Shown here: one piece after another, positions 7,399 to 19,477 of the stretch
How the letters are laid out: each line of letters opens with the position of its first letter
Numbering within the stretch: position 1 is the stretch's first letter
Origin: Oscillospiraceae bacterium
GTDB taxonomy: Bacteria > Bacillota > Clostridia > Oscillospirales > Oscillospiraceae
NCBI GenBank assembly: GCA_017428565.1
Contig: JAFRQP010000033.1
Location: forward strand, 1 to 56,394
Direction: 5' to 3'
Length of the DNA stretch: 56,394 nt
The notes under the pieces: model-generated
Told to the model about the DNA's origin: nothing
What the model saw: the letters and a program-made list of their open reading frames with translations, nothing else
Database searches by the model: none
Made by a program: the position numbers and the translations under genes

Positions 7399-9366
<1,968 letters not shown>

Positions 9367-9417
9367 ACGATCACGTCCTTGAAAAGGGCTGTCTCAAGTA
9401 TCCGCCGCCCTGTCAGC

Positions 9418-9476
9418 CCGAGAAGCGAAGCGACGAGGGATCTCAAAGAGATTCTTCGCTTCGCTCAGAATGACAG
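9418..9476. repeat. Short dispersed-type palindromic repeat
   Basis: The stretch has GAAGCGAAGCG and CTTCGCTTCGCTC arms around a GGGATCTC centre and ends in AGAATGACAG. From memory this resembles a widespread intergenic repeat of bacterial genomes; only this one copy is in the window. It separates the HMA gene from its ATPase. Confidence 0.55.
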
Positions 9477-9508
9477 TGCCGGCTGCGTCAGCCTCTTCGC
9501 TCTCCCGA

Positions 9509-9727
9509 TCAAAAGTAGATCTCGCAGTCGTCCTCGACCTTTCTGCAGGCCTTGAGGACCTCCTTCATGACGGCCTTGGGATCGGCGCCGTCTTCAAAGT
9601 CCACATGCATCTTCAGTGCCATGAAATTGACCACCGCGTCCTTCACGCCGGGGGTCTTTTTGGCGGCGTCCTCCATCTTGTTGGCGCAGTTGGCGCAGTC
9701 CACCTCGATCTTATAGCTCTTCTTCAT
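9509..9727 (-). CDS. Stand-alone HMA-domain metal-binding protein (CopZ-like)
   Basis: Small cytosolic metallochaperone-like protein of 72 residues with the beta-alpha-beta HMA pattern. The metal site is CANC in VDCANCANKME. It probably replaces the missing N-terminal metal-binding domain of the adjacent ATPase. The ATG at 9727 is chosen because AAAGGAG lies 9 nt upstream and the product starts MKKSYKIEVDC; an in-frame ATG eight codons earlier lies inside the operator. It is transcribed from the promoter at 9782-9810. Confidence 0.87.
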   Translation of the reverse strand: MKKSYKIEVDCANCANKMEDAAKKTPGVKDAVVNFMALKMHVDFEDGADPKAVMKEVLKACRKVEDDCEIYF

Positions 9728-9748
9728 GGGGCTTCTCCTTTCCGCGTT

Positions 9749-9770
9749 CATATGAACAGTTGTTCATGTG
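9749..9770. promoter_or_regulatory. ArsR/SmtB-type operator upstream of HMA and metal ATPase
   Basis: A 10-2-10 inverted repeat (CATATGAACA-GT-TGTTCATGTG, one mismatch). It resembles the ATGAACA/TGTTCAT sites of metal-sensing ArsR/SmtB-family repressors. It lies about 12 bp downstream of the -10 box, where a repressor would block transcription. No such regulator gene is in the window. Confidence 0.65.
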
Positions 9771-11345: not shown

Positions 11346-11374
11346 TTGACGAAATCGAAAAAACGTGATAGAGT
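11346..11374 (+). promoter_or_regulatory. Promoter of the flavin/Rnf-like operon
   Basis: TTGACG (11346-11351), 17-bp spacer, TAGAGT (11369-11374). It sits 66 nt upstream of the duplicated lipoprotein gene, which heads the ApbE-Rnf cluster. Confidence 0.6.
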
Positions 11375-11440: not shown

Positions 11441-12439
11441 ATGAAAAAGATTTTTGCAATCCTGCTGCTCGTCTGCATGGTGCTGTCTCTGGCCGCCTGC
11501 GGCGGAGCAAAGACCGCTGAGTACAAGCTGGGCATGGGCGTGAGCCTGAACATGAACAGCTCCAAGGCCGGCAACGCCCAGGTGGACGCCACCTGTGCCG
11601 TCGTCGTTCTGGACAAGGACGGCAAGATCGTCGCCTGCCGCATCGACGTGGCCCAGAACAAGATGGACGTCACCGACGGCCAGGTCGACACCGGCAAGAC
11701 CTTCCTGACCAAGGTTGAGCTGGGCGACGACTACAACATGGTCAAGTACTCCGACGCCACCCACGAGTGGTACGAGCAGGCCGCTGCTTTCGAGCAGTAC
11801 TGCATCGGCAAGACCGCTGACGAGATCGCCAACATGGAGACCGTCGTGAACGAAGAGGGCCACACCGTCACTACCGACGAGACTCTGTACGCCTCCTGCT
11901 CCATCTCCATCGGCGACTTCCAGGACGCTGTCGTGAAGGCCTGCAACGACGATCAGGCTGCCACCTTCACCTCCGACGGCACCTTCACCCTTGGCCTGGC
12001 CATCAACTCCACCGCCGCTGAGTCCACCGCCGCCACCGCCGAGGAGGAAGGCGTTGTGAAGATGTACAGCGAGTTCGGCGCCGTGGTGCTGGACAAGGAC
12101 GGCAAGATCCTGGCCGCTCTGACCGACGCCACCCAGCCCCAGATCAAGATTGACGCCGCCGGCGAGATCGGTGACAAGACCTTCAAGGGCACCAAGCGCG
12201 AGCTGAAGGAAGGCTACAACATGGTCGCCTACTCCGACGCCACTCTGGAGTGGTACCAGCAGGCCAAGAACTTCACCGACTACTGCGTGGGCAAGACCGC
12301 CGCTGATCTGCGCGCCACCGAGACCAAGGAAGACGGCGGGCATACCGTCTTCGCGGACGAGACCCTGTATGCCTCCTGCTCCATCAGTGTGCAGGGCATG
12401 ATCGACGTCGTCGCCAAGGCTTGCGACAACGCCAAGTAA
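11441..12439 (+). CDS. Duplicated-domain lipoprotein at the head of the ApbE-Rnf cluster
   Basis: Secreted lipoprotein of 332 residues (lipobox LSLAAC, Cys about residue 20) made of two ~145-residue copies of one domain. Each copy contains VVLDKDGKI, then YNMVxYSDATxEWYxQA, then YCxGKTA, and ends DETLYASCSIS followed by a DAV/DVV-x-KAC helix. I do not recognise a named family with certainty. The C-terminal ASCSIS...DAVVKA stretch resembles the SGATxTS...AV flavinylation segment of FMN-bind domains with Ser in the Thr position, which together with the ApbE gene downstream suggests an extracytosolic redox carrier (inference). Two conserved Cys per copy could form a disulfide. A GC-rich hairpin follows the stop. 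Confidence 0.72.
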   Translation: MKKIFAILLLVCMVLSLAACGGAKTAEYKLGMGVSLNMNSSKAGNAQVDATCAVVVLDKDGKIVACRIDVAQNKMDVTDGQVDTGKTFLTKVELGDDYNMVKYSDATHEWYEQAAAFEQYCIGKTADEIANMETVVNEEGHTVTTDETLYASCSISIGDFQDAVVKACNDDQAATFTSDGTFTLGLAINSTAAESTAATAEEEGVVKMYSEFGAVVLDKDGKILAALTDATQPQIKIDAAGEIGDKTFKGTKRELKEGYNMVAYSDATLEWYQQAKNFTDYCVGKTAADLRATETKEDGGHTVFADETLYASCSISVQGMIDVVAKACDNAK

Positions 12440-12453
12440 GAAACAACATGCAA

Positions 12454-12482
12454 GCGCCGGGAGAGCTGCGCTTTCCCGGCGC
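12454..12482 (+). terminator. Intercistronic hairpin between lipoprotein and apbE
   Basis: A 9-bp perfect GC-rich stem (12454-12462 with 12474-12482) without a T-tract. It could stabilise the upstream mRNA or attenuate transcription, so the lipoprotein would be made in excess over ApbE and Rnf. Confidence 0.5.
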
Positions 12483-12510
12483 AATTCATCATTCATAGGA
12501 GATGAACGCT

Positions 12511-13584
12511 TTGCGGCCCATGAAACGGATCAGCGCGCTGTTCCTGCTGCTTGCGCTGCTGCCGCTTGCCGCCTGCTCCGCCGCGGAGAAGGCGCCTCAG
12601 CCGGCAGAGCCGAAGGGAATGGTGTATTACACCTATTTCGACACGGTCTCCTATGTCTATGACTACACGGGAGATTCGGCAGAACGGTTTGAGGATCGTT
12701 CTGCCGAAGTTTCGTCTATCCTGCTGAAATACCACCAGCTCTTTGACATTTACCATGAGTACAGCGGCATCGTGAACCTCTGCACCCTGAACAAAAACGC
12801 CGGGGGCGAGCCGCTGGAGGCGGATCCGGAGCTGATCGCCTTCCTGCTCTACGCCAAGGAGATGTACGAGCTCACAAACGGCGAGATGAACGTGATGCTG
12901 GGGGCGGTGCTGCGCCTGTGGCACGAGTGCCGGGAGGCTGCCGGCGAAGACCCGGAGAATGCCTCCATCCCGGACGAGAGTGCCCTGCGGGAGGCCGCGC
13001 GGCACACGGACATCGCGCTGCTGGAGATCGACGAGGAGAAGGGCACCGTCCGCATCGCGGACCCGGACGCCTCCATCGACGTGGGGGCCCTGGGCAAGGG
13101 CTACGCCACCGAGCGGGCGGCGGAATATCTGGAGTCCGTAGGGGCGGAGGGCTATGTGCTGAACATCGGCGGCAACATCCGCTGCATCGGCGACCGGCCG
13201 GACAAGTCCGGCTGGGCCACCGCCATCCGCAATCCGGACCAGGCGGCGGAGAGCTACTCCTGCCGCATCCGCATCCGGGATTGCTCCTGTGTGACCTCCG
13301 GCGTGTATGAGCGCTATTTTACGGTGGACGGCGTGCGCTACCACCACATCATCGACCGGGACACCCTGTTCCCGGCGGACTACTACCTGTCCCTGACCGT
13401 GATCACCCGGGACAGCGCCCTGGCGGACACCCTTTCGACGGCGCTGTTCTGCATGCCCTGGGAAGAGGGCGCAAGCCTTGTGGAATCTCTCGGCGGCGTG
13501 GAGGCGCTGTGGATCTTCCCCGACGGAAGTGAGCGCAGCACCCCCGGCTTTGCCGATTTGATCGAAGAAGAACCTGAATCTTAG
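12511..13584 (+). CDS. apbE: ApbE-type FAD:protein FMN transferase
   Basis: Extracytosolic lipoprotein enzyme that transfers FMN from FAD to Thr/Ser of target proteins. Signal peptide with lipobox (PLAAC). ApbE signatures include FDTVSYVYDYTG near the N-terminus, DVGALGKGYATERA, LNIGGNIRCIG and the C-terminal HHIIDRDT segment and DTLSTALF. It lies directly before rnfC, so RnfD and RnfG with their GAT motifs are the likely targets. Start choice: ATG 12502 directly abuts the AGGAG box (no spacer) and ATG 12520 is 18 nt away. TTG 12511 lies 9 nt from it, so I prefer TTG; this is uncertain. Confidence 0.88.
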   Translation: MRPMKRISALFLLLALLPLAACSAAEKAPQPAEPKGMVYYTYFDTVSYVYDYTGDSAERFEDRSAEVSSILLKYHQLFDIYHEYSGIVNLCTLNKNAGGEPLEADPELIAFLLYAKEMYELTNGEMNVMLGAVLRLWHECREAAGEDPENASIPDESALREAARHTDIALLEIDEEKGTVRIADPDASIDVGALGKGYATERAAEYLESVGAEGYVLNIGGNIRCIGDRPDKSGWATAIRNPDQAAESYSCRIRIRDCSCVTSGVYERYFTVDGVRYHHIIDRDTLFPADYYLSLTVITRDSALADTLSTALFCMPWEEGASLVESLGGVEALWIFPDGSERSTPGFADLIEEEPES

Positions 13585-13641
13585 TCCGTTGCGAAATGCT
13601 TTTCGCAATGGAATATCATCCTGAGGAGGCGGGAGAATTCA

Positions 13642-14988
13642 ATGTTTAAGAAAAGTATCTCGAGCCTGAAGCTACCCCATTTGAAGGGCACGGCGGGCCT
13701 GGCCCCCGTGCGTATCCCCCAGCCCAAGGAAGTCCTGCTGCCGGTTTCTCCCATGAACTCCCACTCCGCCGTCAACGCGGAGCCGGTGGTGGAGGTAGGC
13801 CAGCATGTGACGGTGGGCCAGCTCATCGCCAAGGAGAAGGATCGCGGCAGCTCCAACATCCACGCTTCCGTCTCCGGCACGGTGAAAGCCATCGAGCCCT
13901 ATGTGGCCGGCGGGCGGAAGGCCATCGCCATCCGCATCGAGAGCGACGGCAAGATGGAAAAATGCCCCGACCTGAAGATCCCCCATCCCACCAATCTGGA
14001 CGAATTCTTGGCGTGCATCCGGGACAGCGGCGCGGTGGGTCTGGGCGGCGCGGCGTACCCCGTGTGGGCCAAGCTCTCCGCCGCGCAGAAGAGCCACATC
14101 AGCACCGTGCTCATTAACGGCGCCGAGTGCGAGCCCTATATCACCTGCGACCACCGGGTCATGCTGGAGCACGGCGATCTGATCCAGAAGGGCATCGAGC
14201 TCATGAAGCAGTTCATGGGCAGCGAGGAGTATATCATCGGCATCGAGAAGAATAAGCCCGACGCCATTGAAGCTCTGACCGAGCGCTTCAAGGACGACCC
14301 CGCGGTGAAGATCCTGCCGCTGAGCAGCGTCTATCCCCAGGGCGCCAAGCAGGTGCTGCTGTACAACGCCACCGGCAAGGTGGTGGAGAAGGGCCAGCGT
14401 ATGGCGAGCCTGGGCGTGGTCATCATCAACGTCTACTCCCTGGTGAAGATGGCGGAGTATTTCGTCACCGGCATGCCCATGGTGGAGCGCATCCTCACCG
14501 TAGAGGGCTCTGCCGTGAAGGAGCCCAAGAACCTGATCGCCCCCATCGGCGTCACGGTGCGGGAGCTGGTGGAGGCCTGCGGCGGTCTGAAGGAAGAGCC
14601 CGGCAAGATCCTCTTCGGCGGCGCCATGATGGGCAAGACCCAGGAATCCCTGGACAACGTGATCCTGAAGGCCACCAACGCCGTGGTGATTATGAACCGG
14701 AAGGACACGGAAAAGACCGCCGCCTCCCCCTGCATCCACTGCGGGCGCTGCGTGTCGGTCTGCCCCCTGGGTCTGAATCCCACCGCCTTCTCCCGGGCCA
14801 TGGAGCTGCCCGAGGGAGAGGAGGAGCTCCGCGCCGCCATTCTGCAGCGGGAGCAGGTCAAGGTCTGCATGGAGTGCGGCTGCTGCAGCTACGTCTGCCC
14901 GGCCCACCGCCCCCTGGCGGAGACCAACACCGCCGCCATCGGCTGGATCCGCAACTGGGAAAAAGCGCATAAGGAAGGAGGACGCTGA
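13642..14988 (+). CDS. rnfC: RnfC-like electron transport complex subunit
   Basis: Peripheral cytosolic subunit of an Rnf-type complex, 448 residues. The NADH/FMN-binding region (VGLGGAAYPVWAKL ... INGAECEPYITCDH) is well conserved. Two [4Fe-4S] motifs follow: CIHCGRCVSVCP and CMECGCCSYVCP, each in normal CxxCxxCxxxCP spacing. A biotinyl-lipoyl-like segment (GQHVTVGQLIAKEKD) precedes them. A GGAGG box lies upstream of ATG 13642. It is first of the rnfCDGEA run and the only Fe-S subunit recognisable in this cluster, since no rnfB follows. Confidence 0.94.
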   Translation: MFKKSISSLKLPHLKGTAGLAPVRIPQPKEVLLPVSPMNSHSAVNAEPVVEVGQHVTVGQLIAKEKDRGSSNIHASVSGTVKAIEPYVAGGRKAIAIRIESDGKMEKCPDLKIPHPTNLDEFLACIRDSGAVGLGGAAYPVWAKLSAAQKSHISTVLINGAECEPYITCDHRVMLEHGDLIQKGIELMKQFMGSEEYIIGIEKNKPDAIEALTERFKDDPAVKILPLSSVYPQGAKQVLLYNATGKVVEKGQRMASLGVVIINVYSLVKMAEYFVTGMPMVERILTVEGSAVKEPKNLIAPIGVTVRELVEACGGLKEEPGKILFGGAMMGKTQESLDNVILKATNAVVIMNRKDTEKTAASPCIHCGRCVSVCPLGLNPTAFSRAMELPEGEEELRAAILQREQVKVCMECGCCSYVCPAHRPLAETNTAAIGWIRNWEKAHKEGGR

Positions 14989-14991
14989 GCC

Positions 14992-15918
14992 ATGGAAAAA
15001 CCCATCATGTCTTCCGGTCCCCATATCCACAGCCACGCCAGCAGCAGACGCATCATGCTGGACGTGATCATCGCCCTGCTGCCCGCCGCCATTGCCGGCG
15101 TGGTCCTCTTCGGGCTTCCCGCCCTGTGGCTCATCGTGACCTGCGTGGCCGCCGCGGTGATCTCCGAGTACCTGTTCAATCTGATCGCCAAGCGGAAGCA
15201 GTCTGTGGGCGACCTGAGCGCCGTGGTCACGGGCCTTCTCCTGGCCCTGAACCTGAGCACGGCCGTCCCCCTCTGGCAGGCGGCCCTGGGCAGCGTCTTC
15301 GCCATCGTGCTGGTGAAATGCGCCTTCGGCGGCATCGGCCACAACATCGCCAACCCCGCCATCGCCGCCCGCGTCTTCCTGCTGCTGAGCTTCGGCTCTC
15401 TCACCGCCGGCTTCCCCGCCCCCCGCGGCGTGGACGCCTTCTCCGGCGCCACTCCCCTGGCTCTCCTGGCCGAGGGCAATACCGGGGAGCTGCCGAGCCT
15501 GCTGCAGATGTTCCTGGGCCAGCGCGGCGGCGCCATCGGCGAGACCTGCATCCTGGCCCTGCTGATCGGCTTTGCCTACCTGCTGATCCGCAAGGTCATC
15601 TCCTGGCAGACGCCGGTGATCTTCATGGGCACCGTCTTCGTCCTCAGCCTGGTCTTCGGCGGCTTCACCGTCGCCGTGTACGAGCTGCTGGCCGGCGGTC
15701 TGGTGCTGGGTGCCGTGTTCATGGCCACCGACTACAGCACCACTCCCATCACCGCCCGCGCCCGGATGCTCTTCGCCCTGGGCTGCGGCCTGATCACCTT
15801 CGTCATCCGCTGGTTCTTCACCCTGCCCGAGGGCGTGTCCTACTCCATCCTGTGCATGAACCTGATGGTTCCCTGGCTGGAGAGATGGACCCGCAGAAAG
15901 CCGCTGGGAGGTGTCTGA
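14992..15918 (+). CDS. rnfD: RnfD-like membrane subunit
   Basis: Integral membrane subunit of 308 residues with about nine hydrophobic helices, NqrB/RnfD family. The covalent FMN site is visible as DAFSGATPLALL (Thr of SGAT). The early GPHIHSH segment and GGIGHNIANPAIAARVFLL match the family. It begins 3 nt after the rnfC stop with AAGGAGG upstream. The preserved SGAT motif argues that this is an active flavoprotein despite the changes in RnfA and RnfE. Confidence 0.93.
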   Translation: MEKPIMSSGPHIHSHASSRRIMLDVIIALLPAAIAGVVLFGLPALWLIVTCVAAAVISEYLFNLIAKRKQSVGDLSAVVTGLLLALNLSTAVPLWQAALGSVFAIVLVKCAFGGIGHNIANPAIAARVFLLLSFGSLTAGFPAPRGVDAFSGATPLALLAEGNTGELPSLLQMFLGQRGGAIGETCILALLIGFAYLLIRKVISWQTPVIFMGTVFVLSLVFGGFTVAVYELLAGGLVLGAVFMATDYSTTPITARARMLFALGCGLITFVIRWFFTLPEGVSYSILCMNLMVPWLERWTRRKPLGGV

Positions 15919-15919
15919 T

Positions 15920-17164
15920 ATGAAGAATAACGCATGGAAATCCATCCTGTGCCTGGTGCTGCTGACGGCAGTGCTGGCGGTGGCGCTTTTCGGCGTCAAC
16001 GCCCTGACCGACCCCATCGTCCAGGCCCGGAAGGGGACCCCCCTCTTTGACCGCAGCGCCCCGGAGAGCGCCGAGATCTCCGTCAGCGCCGATTCGGTAC
16101 AGAGCGTGTACCGCAACGACGCCGAGCAGACCTACACCCTGAAGCTCACCACCGCCCCCGGCTGGCAGTCCTCCATGGGGGTGACCCTGGTGGTGGACTA
16201 CGAGGGCCGCATCGTGTCTCTCACGGTGGACGACCCCGGCGCCGAGACCAAGATGGGCGACCTGGATCAGGCGGACTTCCTGCCCAGCTTCGTGGGCCAG
16301 GATTCCACGCTGGCCGCCGTGGAGCTGGTGGGCGGCGCCACCCTGTCCTCCAAGGCCATCCGCGACGCGGTGACCGACGGCTTCAACACCCTGATCGAAA
16401 ACGGCCTCATCGCCGAGGCTCAGAAGAGCGACGAGCAGCTCCTCAAGGAGCTGGCGCCCATCGCCTTCTCCGGCGCGGCCAACGCCTCCCGCGTCCTCCA
16501 GGGCAGGGAGCTGCAGGGCTCCGGCAGCGCAAGCTCCGGCTTCGCGGCCGAAAACGGCAGCGGCTGCTTCTGGTACGTGGAGCAGAACGGCGAAAAGCTG
16601 CTGGCCGTGTACAGCCAGGTGGGCGGCGTCTCCGTCTTCAACGCCGAGAGCGAAGAGGTGACCGCTTCCGCGGATCCCGCGCTGATCGCGGAGGTCGCGG
16701 CGCTCAGCACCGCCGCCATCGGCGAGCGGAACACCGAGCTGCCCGGCCCGCTCTCCAAGCTGCTGCCCGAGGGCGCCGAGGCCCAGCCCGCGGACATCCC
16801 GGGACTGACCAACTGCGTCGTGGGCGCCTGGACCGTGGAGACCGGGGAGGGCACGCTCTTCGCCTTCCACGCCCGTCCCTACGGCTACGGCAACGAGCCC
16901 ATGGACTTCTACTATGTGCTGGACGAGGCCGGCGCCATCAGCGCCATGCGGGTGAAGGCCATCTTCATCGAAGAGGACTACTTCCCCAACCTCCCGCAGC
17001 TGGACAAGGCCGCCTATCAGGACGGCTTCCTGGGTCTGACCGCCGACAGCTATGACGGCGAGCCCGCCCAGATCGCCGGCGCGACCATCAGCTCCGACGC
17101 GGCGGACACCGCGGCAAAAGACGTGTTTGAGGCCTTTTGGCTTCTGACGGAAAGCAGAGGGTGA
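15920..17164 (+). CDS. rnfG: RnfG-like protein with two FMN-binding domains
   Basis: Single-pass membrane-anchored protein of 414 residues, about twice the usual RnfG length. After an N-terminal helix (~9-28) come two FMN-bind domains. The first carries VGGATLSSKAIRDAV, the second IAGATISSDAADTAA, each with the Thr that ApbE enzymes flavinylate. A low-complexity linker (QGSGSASSGFAAENGSG) lies between. It could carry two covalent FMN groups on the outer face (inference). The ATG at 15920 has GGGAGG 8 nt upstream and follows the rnfD stop by 1 nt; a GTG three codons earlier is less likely. Confidence 0.88.
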   Translation: MKNNAWKSILCLVLLTAVLAVALFGVNALTDPIVQARKGTPLFDRSAPESAEISVSADSVQSVYRNDAEQTYTLKLTTAPGWQSSMGVTLVVDYEGRIVSLTVDDPGAETKMGDLDQADFLPSFVGQDSTLAAVELVGGATLSSKAIRDAVTDGFNTLIENGLIAEAQKSDEQLLKELAPIAFSGAANASRVLQGRELQGSGSASSGFAAENGSGCFWYVEQNGEKLLAVYSQVGGVSVFNAESEEVTASADPALIAEVAALSTAAIGERNTELPGPLSKLLPEGAEAQPADIPGLTNCVVGAWTVETGEGTLFAFHARPYGYGNEPMDFYYVLDEAGAISAMRVKAIFIEEDYFPNLPQLDKAAYQDGFLGLTADSYDGEPAQIAGATISSDAADTAAKDVFEAFWLLTESRG

Positions 17165-17168
17165 GCAT

Positions 17169-17777
17169 ATGAATAAGAAACTGATCTGCCATCCCGTGAC
17201 CCTGCTGTTTCTGGGTGTGATCCCCGCCCTGGCCTCCAGCGCCACGCTGCTGGACGCCCTGGGCATGGGCCTTGCGGCGCTGTGCGTGCTGCTCTGCTCC
17301 ACCTTGGTGCTGAGCCTGCTGCGCGGGCAGCTCTCTCCCGCGGCCCGCTTCGCCGCGGCGCTCATCACCGTGGCGGCCTTCGCCGCCATGGCGCAGCTGC
17401 TGCTGCGGGCCTTCCTGCCCCGCGCCGTTGACATGCTGGGCTACTACGCCGCGATCCTGGCGGCGGAGCTGCTGGTCTTCGGCCGGGAGGAGAAGACGGG
17501 CGCCGCTCTTGCCCACGCTCTCTGGAGCGGGCTGTGCTTCCTGGCTTTTCTGCTGGTGCTCGGCGCTCTGCGGGAGCTCTTCGGCTCCGCCAGCATCGCC
17601 GGCGCCCCCGTTGCCCTGCTGAAAACCTGCACCATCCCCCTGCTGAGCAAGACTTCCGGCGGCTTTTTCCTGTTCGCCATCCTGCTGGCTGTGGTCAATA
17701 AGCTCTTCCCCGGACAGGAGAAGGCCGCGGACCTGGCCCCGGCGGACGCGCTGCCGGAAGCGGAAAAGGAGGCCTGA
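17169..17777 (+). CDS. rnfE: RnfE-like membrane subunit lacking the [2Fe-2S] cysteines
   Basis: Membrane protein of 202 residues with about six helices, aligning along its length to RnfE/NqrD (DALGMGLA, LVLGALRELFG). In canonical RnfE two cysteines in LGLCP and TNC bind an intramembrane [2Fe-2S] cluster shared with RnfA. Here the first motif reads LGVIP and the second position reads AAELLVFG, so Cys is replaced by Ile and Glu. Other cysteines (ALCVLLC, SGLCF) are not at these positions. The frame is intact and the gene is not a pseudogene. Starts 4 nt after rnfG. Confidence 0.87.
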   Translation: MNKKLICHPVTLLFLGVIPALASSATLLDALGMGLAALCVLLCSTLVLSLLRGQLSPAARFAAALITVAAFAAMAQLLLRAFLPRAVDMLGYYAAILAAELLVFGREEKTGAALAHALWSGLCFLAFLLVLGALRELFGSASIAGAPVALLKTCTIPLLSKTSGGFFLFAILLAVVNKLFPGQEKAADLAPADALPEAEKEA

Positions 17778-17779
17778 GC

Positions 17780-18310
17780 ATGAAAGACATGATTCTGCTG
17801 ATCCTGGGCCTGGCCCTGGTGGACCTCTATGCCCTGAAGGGCTTCCTGGGCCGCTCTCCCCTGCTGGGCCAGGACAAGCCCAGCCGCAAGCTGCTGGCTC
17901 TGGGTCTGGCCGTCGCCGTCGTGACGCTGCTGGACAGCCTGCTGCTGGCGCTGCTGCGCTTCATCCCCGCGTATCTCACGGTGCTGGCCGGCGTGGTGCT
18001 GGCCCTGGCGCTGACTTGGCTGCTGTCCTTCGTCTGCCGCAAGCCTCTGGGCGTCTGGCTGCCGGTCATCGCCCTGGCCGCCGCCGCCATCGCCCTGCTG
18101 AATCTGACCCGTCTGGAGACGGACGGGCTGCTGCCCGCGCTGCTCTGGGCTCTGGGCTACGGTCTGGGCTTCCTGGGCGCCCTCTTCCTGCTGGAGGGCA
18201 TCCAGCGCCGGCTTGAGCCGGAGCATATGCCCAAGGCCTTCCGGGGTCTGCCCATCCAGCTGCTGGCTGCCGGGCTCCTGGCCATGGCGCTGACGGCCTT
18301 CCCCATCTGA
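17780..18310 (+). CDS. rnfA: RnfA-like membrane subunit lacking the [2Fe-2S] cysteines
   Basis: Membrane protein of 176 residues with six helices, RnfA/NqrE family (PKAFRGLPIQLLAAGLLAMA near the end matches [20 protein letters not shown] of characterised RnfA). The motif that normally reads FLGLCP here reads FLGRSP, and the TTNCAVLGVALLN region reads ALAAAAIALLN, so both ligand cysteines are lost. Length is slightly below the usual ~190. It starts 2 nt after rnfE. Its stop overlaps the next start (TGATG). No rnfB follows. Confidence 0.86.
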   Translation: MKDMILLILGLALVDLYALKGFLGRSPLLGQDKPSRKLLALGLAVAVVTLLDSLLLALLRFIPAYLTVLAGVVLALALTWLLSFVCRKPLGVWLPVIALAAAAIALLNLTRLETDGLLPALLWALGYGLGFLGALFLLEGIQRRLEPEHMPKAFRGLPIQLLAAGLLAMALTAFPI

Positions 18311-18690
18311 TGAGCAGGCCGAAAAGCGGCAAAACGCTCACGGCGGACCTGTCCGTGATCCTGGGTCTCCTGCTGCTGGCGGGGATCCTGTACCTGCTGC
18401 TGAACGTGAACCGCCCCGAGGGGGGCGTGGCCGTGGTCCGGGTCAACGGCGTGGTGACGGAGCGTCACCCTCTGAACGTGGACGGCAGCTTCCCCCTCAA
18501 CGGCGGCAGCAACATCCTGGTGATTCAGGACGGGCAGGCCTGGCTCTCGGAGGCGGACTGCCCGGACAAGCTCTGCGTCAAGCAGGGCAGGATCCACTAC
18601 AGCGGCCAGATCATCACCTGCCTGCCCAACCGTCTGACCGTCACCGTGGAGGGCGGCGAGTCTGACGGCGTGGATCTGGTGGTGGGCTGA
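18310..18690 (+). CDS. NusG domain II-containing (DUF1312) membrane-anchored protein
   Basis: Protein of 126 residues with one N-terminal membrane helix (~13-32) and an extracytosolic NusG-II-like domain. The conserved block AWLSEADCPDKLCVKQGRI ... ITCLPNRL holds three cysteines (CPDKLC and CLPN). Family members sit beside ApbE, FMN-bind and Gx-transporter genes in many Firmicutes, so a role in extracytosolic flavin or quinone electron transfer is suspected, not proven. It occupies the position where rnfB would be expected. The ATG overlaps the rnfA stop. Confidence 0.87.
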   Translation: MSRPKSGKTLTADLSVILGLLLLAGILYLLLNVNRPEGGVAVVRVNGVVTERHPLNVDGSFPLNGGSNILVIQDGQAWLSEADCPDKLCVKQGRIHYSGQIITCLPNRLTVTVEGGESDGVDLVVG

Positions 18691-18700
18691 GGAGGCGCGC

Positions 18701-19228
18701 ATGAAAGTCAAACGGATCACTCAGATGGCCATGTGCATCGCCCTGGCGATGATCCTGTCCTATGTGGAGGCCCAGCTCCCCTCCCTGGGGATCCCGGGGG
18801 TGAAGATGGGCCTGGCGAACCTGGTGGTGGTCTTCTGCCTCTACAGGCTGGGCTGGAAGGAGGCGGCGGGGATCTCCCTGCTGCGGGTCCTCCTGGTCTC
18901 CCTGCTCTTCGGCCATGTGGCCAGCCTCATGTACTCCGCCGCCGGCGCGGCGCTGAGTCTCACGGGCATGATCCTGCTGCGGCGGCTGGCTCCGGGCCTG
19001 CGCTGCGTAACGGTGAGCGTGGTGGGCGGCGTGCTGCACAATGTGGGCCAGATCCTGATGGCCTGCGTGCTGATGGGCCCCAATGTGGTCTATTATCTGC
19101 CGGTGCTGATCGTCAGCGGCACGGTGACGGGCGTGATCATCGGCCTGGTGGCCGCCCTGCTGGTGAAGCGCACCGACCTGTTGGTCGGAAAGGACGCGCC
19201 CCCGGCCAAGAAGGACGACGCGCGCTGA
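18701..19228 (+). CDS. Gx transporter family / heptaprenyl diphosphate synthase component I-like membrane protein
   Basis: Membrane protein of 175 residues with five to six helices resembling an ECF-type S component. Signatures: MCIALAMILSYVEAQLPS, PGVKMGLANLVVVF and GGVLHNVGQIL. Databases call this family Gx transporter or heptaprenyl diphosphate synthase subunit I. Its recurrent linkage to NusG-II and ApbE genes suggests supply of a flavin or isoprenoid/quinone precursor for the redox complex (inference). It begins 10 nt after the NusG-II gene with GAGGCG upstream and ends the operon before a strong terminator. Confidence 0.85.
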   Translation: MKVKRITQMAMCIALAMILSYVEAQLPSLGIPGVKMGLANLVVVFCLYRLGWKEAAGISLLRVLLVSLLFGHVASLMYSAAGAALSLTGMILLRRLAPGLRCVTVSVVGGVLHNVGQILMACVLMGPNVVYYLPVLIVSGTVTGVIIGLVAALLVKRTDLLVGKDAPPAKKDDAR

Positions 19229-19260: not shown

Positions 19261-19309
19261 AATACCCTCCGAGCGCTTCTTTCGCGGAGCGCCCGGAGGG
19301 TATTTTTTT
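19261..19309. terminator. Terminator of the Rnf-like operon
   Basis: An 11-bp stem (19261-19271 with 19294-19304; ATACCCTCCG/CGGAGGGTAT) with a 22-nt loop is followed by a T-tract to 19309. An A-tract precedes it. Confidence 0.9.
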
Positions 19310-19357
19310 CGCCGCCCCGACACGGGACGCCGCAGCGCGCCTTCGATGATCAAAATC

Positions 19358-19373
19358 CAAGAGGTCAGCGGTT
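19358..19373 (+). repeat. Inverted 16-bp copy of the tRNA-Ala core
   Basis: CAAGAGGTCAGCGGTT on the plus strand equals part of the tRNA-Ala anticodon/T-arm that lies in opposite orientation at 19453-19468. It sits outside the left attachment repeat, on the chromosome side. Confidence 0.55.
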
Positions 19374-19399
19374 GCACCGACATGCCCACAAACAAAAGA

Positions 19400-19427: not shown

Positions 19428-19431
19428 CTTT

Positions 19432-19477
19432 TGGTGGAGATAAGCGGGATCGAACCGCTGACCTCTTGAATGCCATT
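19432..19477 (-). repeat. Island end (att), 46-bp direct repeat of tRNA-Ala 3' part
   Basis: Identical over 46 bp to 39141-39186. It encodes, on the minus strand, the tRNA-Ala(GGC) sequence from the anticodon loop through the T-arm to CCA. The 5' part of the tRNA is absent here. This is the integrase-distal end of the 19.7-kb island. Confidence 0.88.

Follow-up and report, generated by a model that had tools for sequence, protein, structure and literature searches.

How can an Rnf complex work without RnfB and without the cysteines that hold the [2Fe-2S] cluster of RnfA and RnfE? The question is raised by the window, a stretch of 56,394 nucleotides of contig JAFRQP010000033.1 from an Oscillospiraceae bacterium, in which the genes for RnfC, RnfD, RnfG, RnfE, and RnfA are followed by a gene for a NusG_II-domain protein at the usual position of rnfB. 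A preliminary description of the window had reported this order together with clean frames and tight packing, and the open reading frames agree with it: the frames from RnfC to NusG_II are clean, adjacent genes overlap by at most 8 bp or are separated by at most 4 bp, and no rnfB follows rnfA in the cluster. The RnfB-less copy is a conserved variant and not a product of decay. It is probably a "half Rnf", an Rnf paralogue that would have lost the ferredoxin arm (RnfB and the RnfA/RnfE cluster), kept the reduced nicotinamide adenine dinucleotide (NADH) arm, and become a one-way exporter of electrons.

All four cluster cysteines are missing from the window proteins when these are aligned to canonical homologues, as had been proposed. 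RnfE (17169–17777, plus strand, as for all genes of the cluster) carries Ile (LGVIP) and Leu (AEL) at the two ligand positions, and RnfA (17780–18310) carries Ser (LGRSP) and Ala (ALAAA). Only the register of the second RnfE site had to be corrected: the canonical V-N-C pairs with A-E-L and not with A-A-E. A profile of Cys-poor RnfE sequences aligns to RnfE of Acetobacterium woodii (9eri_E) with an E-value of 1.9e-39, and one of Cys-poor RnfA sequences aligns to A. woodii RnfA (9eri_A) with an E-value of 2.1e-47; the lost sites correspond to C25 and C108 of RnfE and to C25 and C113 of RnfA, the ligand numbering being that of excerpts of PMC11889175. Both proteins genuinely belong to PF02508 but have diverged strongly, and they score far below the NCBIfam subfamily cut-offs (RnfE, TIGR01948, 81.7 versus 213.4 bits; RnfA, TIGR01943, 69.3 versus 229.3 bits). 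Cysteines shifted to other places were considered as substitute ligands and rejected: across 65 distinct copies without RnfB, no Cys column of RnfE is more frequent than the old Cys25 itself (21 of 65), and the most frequent one of RnfA is occupied in 16 of 65. A single remaining cysteine could hardly hold the cluster.

The cofactor sites of the other subunits are kept, in line with the earlier account of intact flavin mononucleotide (FMN) motifs in RnfD and RnfG and Fe-S motifs in RnfC. RnfC (13642–14988; TIGR01945, 389.6 bits, above the cut-off) aligned to 9eri_C and 7zc6_C has an intact FMN/NADH motif (GLGGAAYP, AECEP) and both 4Fe-4S motifs. RnfD (14992–15918, 308 amino acids; TIGR01946, 278 bits, above the cut-off) contains only the domain PF03116, with an intact FMN threonine (SGATP) and conserved Asn and Asp residues of the riboflavin site, aligned to N123 and D249 of A. 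woodii. RnfG (15911–17164; PF04205) is composed of two FMN-binding domains, each with its FMN-attachment motif (Thr144 and Thr392); both halves match solved RnfG/NqrC, and the AlphaFold model has a predicted local distance difference test score (pLDDT) of 90.

The absence of RnfB and the loss of the cysteines coincide in all operons that allow both to be judged. The loci compared (labelled L; genomes, G) were chosen rather than randomly sampled, and related genomes are not independent. After the removal of identical RnfE tails, the annotated loci hold 92 distinct RnfE/RnfA pairs: 65 without RnfB, 25 with RnfB, and two boundary cases. Among the RnfB-less pairs, 44 keep none of the four cysteines and 21 keep one, which is always RnfE Cys25; all 25 RnfB-containing pairs and both boundary pairs have four. 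The boundary cases are L149, in which the RnfB gene is present but starts too far inside RnfA for the distance rule (as it does in L009), and the minus-strand pair at the edge of L199; L210 ends too close to the end of RnfA for RnfB and the last cysteine to be judged. No judged operon mixes the two states. A second set, which overlaps the first, comprises 59 short loci: the 54 that contain RnfB have four cysteines, and the five without it (the window, G004, G052 twice, and G374) have none. This joint loss upholds the earlier view of a specialised complex. The suggested linkage of NusG_II and Gx, the product of the last gene of the cluster, to the Cys-less state did not survive: both also stand behind RnfB in 13 of 27 distinct four-Cys operons.

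A search of the window's own genome (84% complete) for rnfB and another rnf operon found a complete canonical one on contig 91, with RnfC, RnfD, RnfG, RnfE, RnfA, RnfB, and all four cysteines. A canonical set elsewhere, with the window copy untranscribed, had been named as grounds for dismissing the copy; the canonical set exists, but conservation of the copy in dozens of species-level genomes speaks against a silent relic.

A Cys-poor copy was found in 19 of the 41 genomes of the window's genus, and two further candidate loci are canonical; these counts cover 20 candidate loci read in 20 other genomes, and the remaining 20 genomes have RnfE matches of at most 108 bits or none. The three top matches in a scan of 295 genomes of the order are Cys-less copies (329, 312, and 280 bits), followed by a gap to 172 bits, and the next 27 fetched loci are canonical. 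Among 391 genomes of the class, the 11 fetched loci outside our own set are all canonical and contain RnfB. Both scans cover the fetched loci, and the early profiles possibly miss divergent members. The lipoprotein encoded upstream of apbE was used as bait in named genome contigs, where it matched 121 stretches; of the 85 loci found, 80 were analysed, of which 59 have an RnfB-less pair, 3 have only four-Cys pairs, and 18 have no pair, whereas RnfB-less clusters lacking the lipoprotein would be missed. The titles of these records are mostly Oscillospiraceae, Ruminococcaceae, or unplaced Clostridia, often metagenome-assembled genomes from ruminant gut samples. The closest named contig is ONPF01000037 from "uncultured Clostridiales bacterium RUG502" (lipoprotein 90% and RnfC 93% identical); RUG names denote rumen genomes. 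Three records named outside Oscillospiraceae, the Spirochaetales assemblies L208 and L214 and the Erysipelotrichaceae assembly L205, contain the lipoprotein or a half-Rnf cluster, which may reflect misbinning or transfer.

The RnfB-less copies form a single clade. One branch with a Shimodaira–Hasegawa-like approximate likelihood ratio test (SH-aLRT) support of 100 separates them both in the RnfC tree (61 RnfB-less of 86 rows) and in the RnfD tree (63 of 89); the trees are quick ones, calculated with LG+G4, and carry long-branch warnings. If the RnfC tree is rooted at its midpoint, which is an inferred root, the RnfB-less copies are nested among RnfB-containing operons. The zero-Cys and one-Cys states require at least three or four changes on the RnfC tree, and the last cysteine therefore seems to have been lost repeatedly after the loss of RnfB. 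Ratios of nonsynonymous to synonymous substitution rates (dN/dS) of the RnfB-less copies are well under 1; the values for RnfE and RnfA from L197/L199 (0.65, 0.80) were excluded, as paralogues are mixed there.

The neighbouring genes look like old Rnf partners, because RnfB-containing operons carry them as well. L213, with four cysteines, has the order lipoprotein-ApbE-RnfCDGEA-RnfB-NusG_II-Gx, which is the order of the window with rnfB still in place. Other families of the order have RnfCDGEAB-NusG_II-Gx, some with the lipoprotein and ApbE behind (L101, L102, L143, L144; on the other strand in L103). The NusG_II and Gx pair is thus probably older than the loss of rnfB, and so may be the two-domain RnfG, since long RnfG proteins occur in the RnfB-containing, four-Cys operons L138–L140 and L142.

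The lost and the kept sites can be placed on the path of electrons in the A. woodii complex. Excerpts of PMC11889175 describe this path as U-shaped, from ferredoxin through RnfB, the RnfA/RnfE cluster, the FMN of RnfG, the flavins of RnfD, and RnfC to NAD+; there, mutants of the cluster cysteines did not grow autotrophically, and the purified variants lacked ferredoxin-dependent NAD+ reduction. In half Rnf, electrons of NADH would enter RnfC, with its FMN and two 4Fe-4S clusters, cross the membrane through the flavins of RnfD, and reach the first FMN of RnfG on the outside. Its second FMN domain would receive them next and hand them on to extracytosolic acceptors, perhaps the lipoprotein of the cluster or other flavin or haem proteins. 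ApbE would attach the FMNs, and the Gx/EetB protein would deliver flavin adenine dinucleotide (FAD) to ApbE, while RnfA and RnfE would stay as a structural dock for RnfG. Because the transfer of electrons from NADH to flavin is downhill, NADH to the outside is the likely direction of flow; we infer this direction, the nature of the acceptor, and the loss of redox-driven Na+ pumping. Multi-flavinylated RnfG has been proposed as an outlet to extracytosolic acceptors (PMC8238504, in excerpts). The preliminary description held that flow from RnfC across the membrane would need another carrier. None is required, since RnfC reaches RnfG through the flavins of RnfD, whose sites are kept, and the RnfA/RnfE cluster lies between RnfB and RnfG.

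Several observations weigh against this one-way exporter. A mere scaffold need not keep residues implicated in, or close to, the handling of Na+, but RnfE Glu115 is kept in 59 of the 65 RnfB-less copies, RnfE position 67 is Lys or Arg in 50, and RnfA Asn112 is kept in 62. The dN/dS of RnfE and RnfA tends to be above that of RnfC in the same pairs. The threonine motifs indicate that flavin can be attached, which is not proof of attachment, and the lipoprotein is only a candidate flavin-binding protein. In addition, no terminal acceptor linked to the half-Rnf cluster was found. Elsewhere in the window's genome, G000:C79:5457-7184 (L262:5457-7184) encodes a membrane-anchored FMN_bind domain, preceded by a hydrophobic stretch at the N-terminus and fused to a cytochrome c552 (NrfA-type nitrite reductase) domain; ResB- and CcsA-like genes come next. 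The fusion is possibly a flavinylated nitrite reductase and a possible acceptor. It was rejected as a dedicated one, as the full-length fusion occurs in 7 of 19 half-Rnf genomes and 7 of 22 others among the 41 of the genus (p = 0.75), or in 10 of 19 and 8 of 22 when partial genes are included (p = 0.35). As a separate observation, at least four matches to the fusion protein were found in none of the 19 half-Rnf genomes versus 9 of the 22 others (p = 0.0017, uncorrected for relatedness), many of these matches lying in very large proteins that match FMN_bind repeatedly.

The kept residues fit a different reading, in which RnfA and RnfE still move Na+ without Fe-S: flavin redox changes and motion of RnfG would drive alternating access, an acidic residue beside the lost Cys108 would assume the electrostatic role of the reduced cluster, and NADH would power a pump that has no Fe-S in the membrane. 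At RnfE position 107, 35 of the 65 RnfB-less copies have Asp or Glu, against Asn in 27 of 27 canonical ones, and a central part in the initial binding of Na+ has been proposed for the R67–E115 pair of A. woodii (PMC11889175, in excerpts). However, what drives the published pump is the reduction of the cluster, and this cluster is missing here. Furthermore, another residue takes the place of RnfA Thr110 in 61 of 65 copies and of Thr111 in 64 of 65 (the remainder are three copies with Thr110 and a truncated one), and the conserved residues may be structural. We consider such a pump unlikely. Slightly more doubtful is a combination of the two readings, according to which the clade would represent a second natural escape from Rnf through the loss of rnfB, mirroring the proposed origin of Nqr, with a half-complex exporting NADH electrons and Cys-free RnfA and RnfE, bearing the acidic residue by the lost ligand, forming a cluster-independent ion pathway.

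The remaining explanations are less probable still. The NusG_II protein (18310–18690; PF07009, 94.4 bits) occupies the former place of rnfB, and three cysteines are invariant among three aligned copies, so that its conserved CPDxxC...C cysteines might make it a new redox carrier replacing RnfB and the cluster. This is improbable: NusG_II and Gx are unlikely replacements because both also follow canonical RnfB in the 13 of 27 operons mentioned above, including L213 with its identical gene order, and no NusG_II was detected beside the RnfB-less L168, L180, and L189, whose sequences continue past RnfA. The same counts, and the membership of Gx in the EetB family, weaken the earlier suggestion that NusG_II or a molecule supplied by Gx serves as the carrier. 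We hold it to be equally improbable that RnfB is borrowed from, or RnfA and RnfE exchanged with, a canonical Rnf of the same cell. The genome of the window and many relatives carry both operons, but only Cys-poor PF02508 genes were found in G401 (95% complete) and G374 (90% complete), from which contigs may be missing; G403 was dropped as a further genome without canonical Rnf after part of a canonical copy was found. A borrowed RnfB would still be without a next carrier, and RnfC and RnfD of the two sets of operons belong to separate clades. That the copy is decaying and functionless would agree with the RnfE and RnfA scores far below the cut-offs, but it is highly improbable given intact clusters in dozens of species-level genomes, a single clade with dN/dS well under 1, and intact cofactor motifs in the other subunits.

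Compared with Rnf, half Rnf has homologous RnfC, RnfD, RnfG, RnfE, and RnfA in the same order, with RnfC and RnfD above the NCBIfam cut-offs and the flavin and RnfC Fe-S sites kept. It differs in the absence of RnfB and the [2Fe-2S] ligands, in RnfE and RnfA that fall under the cut-offs, and in the two FMN domains of RnfG. The name ferredoxin:NAD+ oxidoreductase is inapt, because two defining features of Rnf, RnfB and the RnfA/RnfE ligands, are missing; judging by its sites, half Rnf should not oxidise ferredoxin. Annotation based on RnfC and RnfD only would wrongly assign this activity, and surveys based on RnfB skip the complex. In a survey of flavinylation systems, a system counted as Rnf only if RnfB was present (PMC8238504, in excerpts), which may be why half Rnf is absent from it. 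Our searches of the open-licence PMC literature showed no description of a Cys-less, RnfB-less Rnf.

Nqr has been proposed to originate from a duplicate of the rnf operon in which rnfB disappeared first; the loss of the RnfC cofactors and the recruitment of NqrF would have followed (PMC4014512, in excerpts). The RnfB-less clade shares with that proposal the duplication and the loss of rnfB, but it is a second loss with the opposite outcome. The membrane cluster is retained in Nqr, which acquired NqrF and whose NqrA has lost the RnfC cofactors, whereas half Rnf is its mirror image: RnfC, unlike NqrA, keeps the Fe-S and FMN motifs, nothing in the cluster replaces RnfB, and there is no NqrF among the nine genes at 11441–19228, the rest of the genome not having been searched for it. 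The clade offers a living comparison for the Nqr-origin proposal in which the opposite subunit has lost its cofactors. The membrane [2Fe-2S] cluster is held to be the heart of the Rnf/Nqr pump, and here it is cut out together with RnfB while the rest remains under selection. The U-shaped path is put to a natural test here: an electron exporter driven by NADH is what should be left over if it is correct. For rumen and gut bacteria, half Rnf suggests an outlet for NADH electrons to extracytosolic acceptors.

One-way flow from NAD(P)H to extracytosolic flavins has also been proposed for two-subunit Nqr/Rnf-like systems (Meheust 2021), found primarily in Actinobacteria and the Candidate Phyla Radiation. 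Each pairs one RnfG-like protein with a subunit in which an NqrB/RnfD domain is joined to an NAD-binding domain of the NqrF type, whereas RnfD of half Rnf has no such fused domain (PF00175). Rnf with multi-flavinylated RnfG (Meheust 2021) is similar in having more than one FMN domain in RnfG and a proposed outlet to extracytosolic acceptors, but RnfB defines Rnf there, and the long-RnfG operons listed above keep RnfB and four cysteines. In the Listeria-type flavin-based extracellular electron transfer system, Ndh2 and quinone feed PplA, a two-domain FMN_bind lipoprotein. The similarity to half Rnf lies in one locus containing an ApbE-type flavin transferase, EetB (PF07456), and an extracytosolic lipoprotein. 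Here, however, electrons would be fed to the outside by a complex derived from Rnf, the lipoprotein cannot be recognised as FMN_bind, and none of the nine genes is Ndh2-like. Excerpts of PMC9973259 identify the Gx family PF07456 as EetB, an FAD-binding subunit of the energy-coupling factor (ECF) type, report that EetB is needed to bring out FAD for the ApbE homologue in Listeria, and find eetB colocalised with Rnf genes in 572 Clostridia genomes. The window protein (18701–19228; PF07456, 129.9 bits) is ECF-S-like and probably an FAD exporter for ApbE.

The lipoprotein (11441–12439) consists of two repeats, with a lipobox LAAC recognised by eye and an AlphaFold pLDDT of 94. It has no Pfam match at 0.001, no Foldseek match under 0.001, and no RnfG/NqrC row in VIA-align; its only PDB relative is the distant, uncharacterised 2kzx. 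Of the 17 RnfB-less relatives fetched by RnfE whose loci extend far enough upstream, 16 have it and L124 does not; four more are cut by the contig end. Its identity to two relatives is 75% and 58%, versus 50% and 31% for RnfG from the same clusters. Each repeat ends in A-x-[CV]-[ST], with Ser or Thr in 51 of 51 sequences for both repeats, which is reminiscent of [S/T]GA[S/T]-like flavinylation motifs; that the lipoprotein is flavinylated would be a guess. L126 (12036-14006; 657 amino acids from the first MK, 1002 bits) and L167 have a lipoprotein gene about twice as long, apparently with four repeats. In other families (L246–L256, L105, L106, and L108), the lipoprotein occurs in stretches without Rnf genes, usually accompanied by ApbE and occasionally by NusG_II or Gx; it represents a lipoprotein family that has no Pfam match.

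The unit described initially, 13642–18690, holds the core genes, but its ends must be extended: the lipoprotein and ApbE upstream and Gx/EetB downstream belong to the same tight run of nine genes. ApbE (12502–13584), an FAD:protein FMN transferase (PF02424, 216 bits), also has a lipobox LAAC recognised by eye, and a hairpin of 15 pairs lies at 12675–12708 inside the 5' part of its coding region. A weak promoter-like site on the plus strand, TTGACG-17-TAGAGT (11346–11374), precedes the lipoprotein gene; one such site was found versus 0.8 expected in shuffles. The scan of the window found no more terminator-like sites than in shuffles, but an inverted repeat followed by a T run at 19261–19310 (plus strand), identified by eye, is a likely intrinsic terminator whose loop apparently exceeds the limit of the scan. 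ARAGORN found no transfer RNA in the window. By eye, a sequence similar to the 3' half of a minus-strand transfer RNA is located at 19430–19475, with a short repeat at 19358–19374, possibly the remnant of an attachment site. On the other side of the cluster, the minus strand at 7399–9751 encodes a small protein resembling metallochaperones and a P-type ATPase for heavy metals, the latter named by eye.

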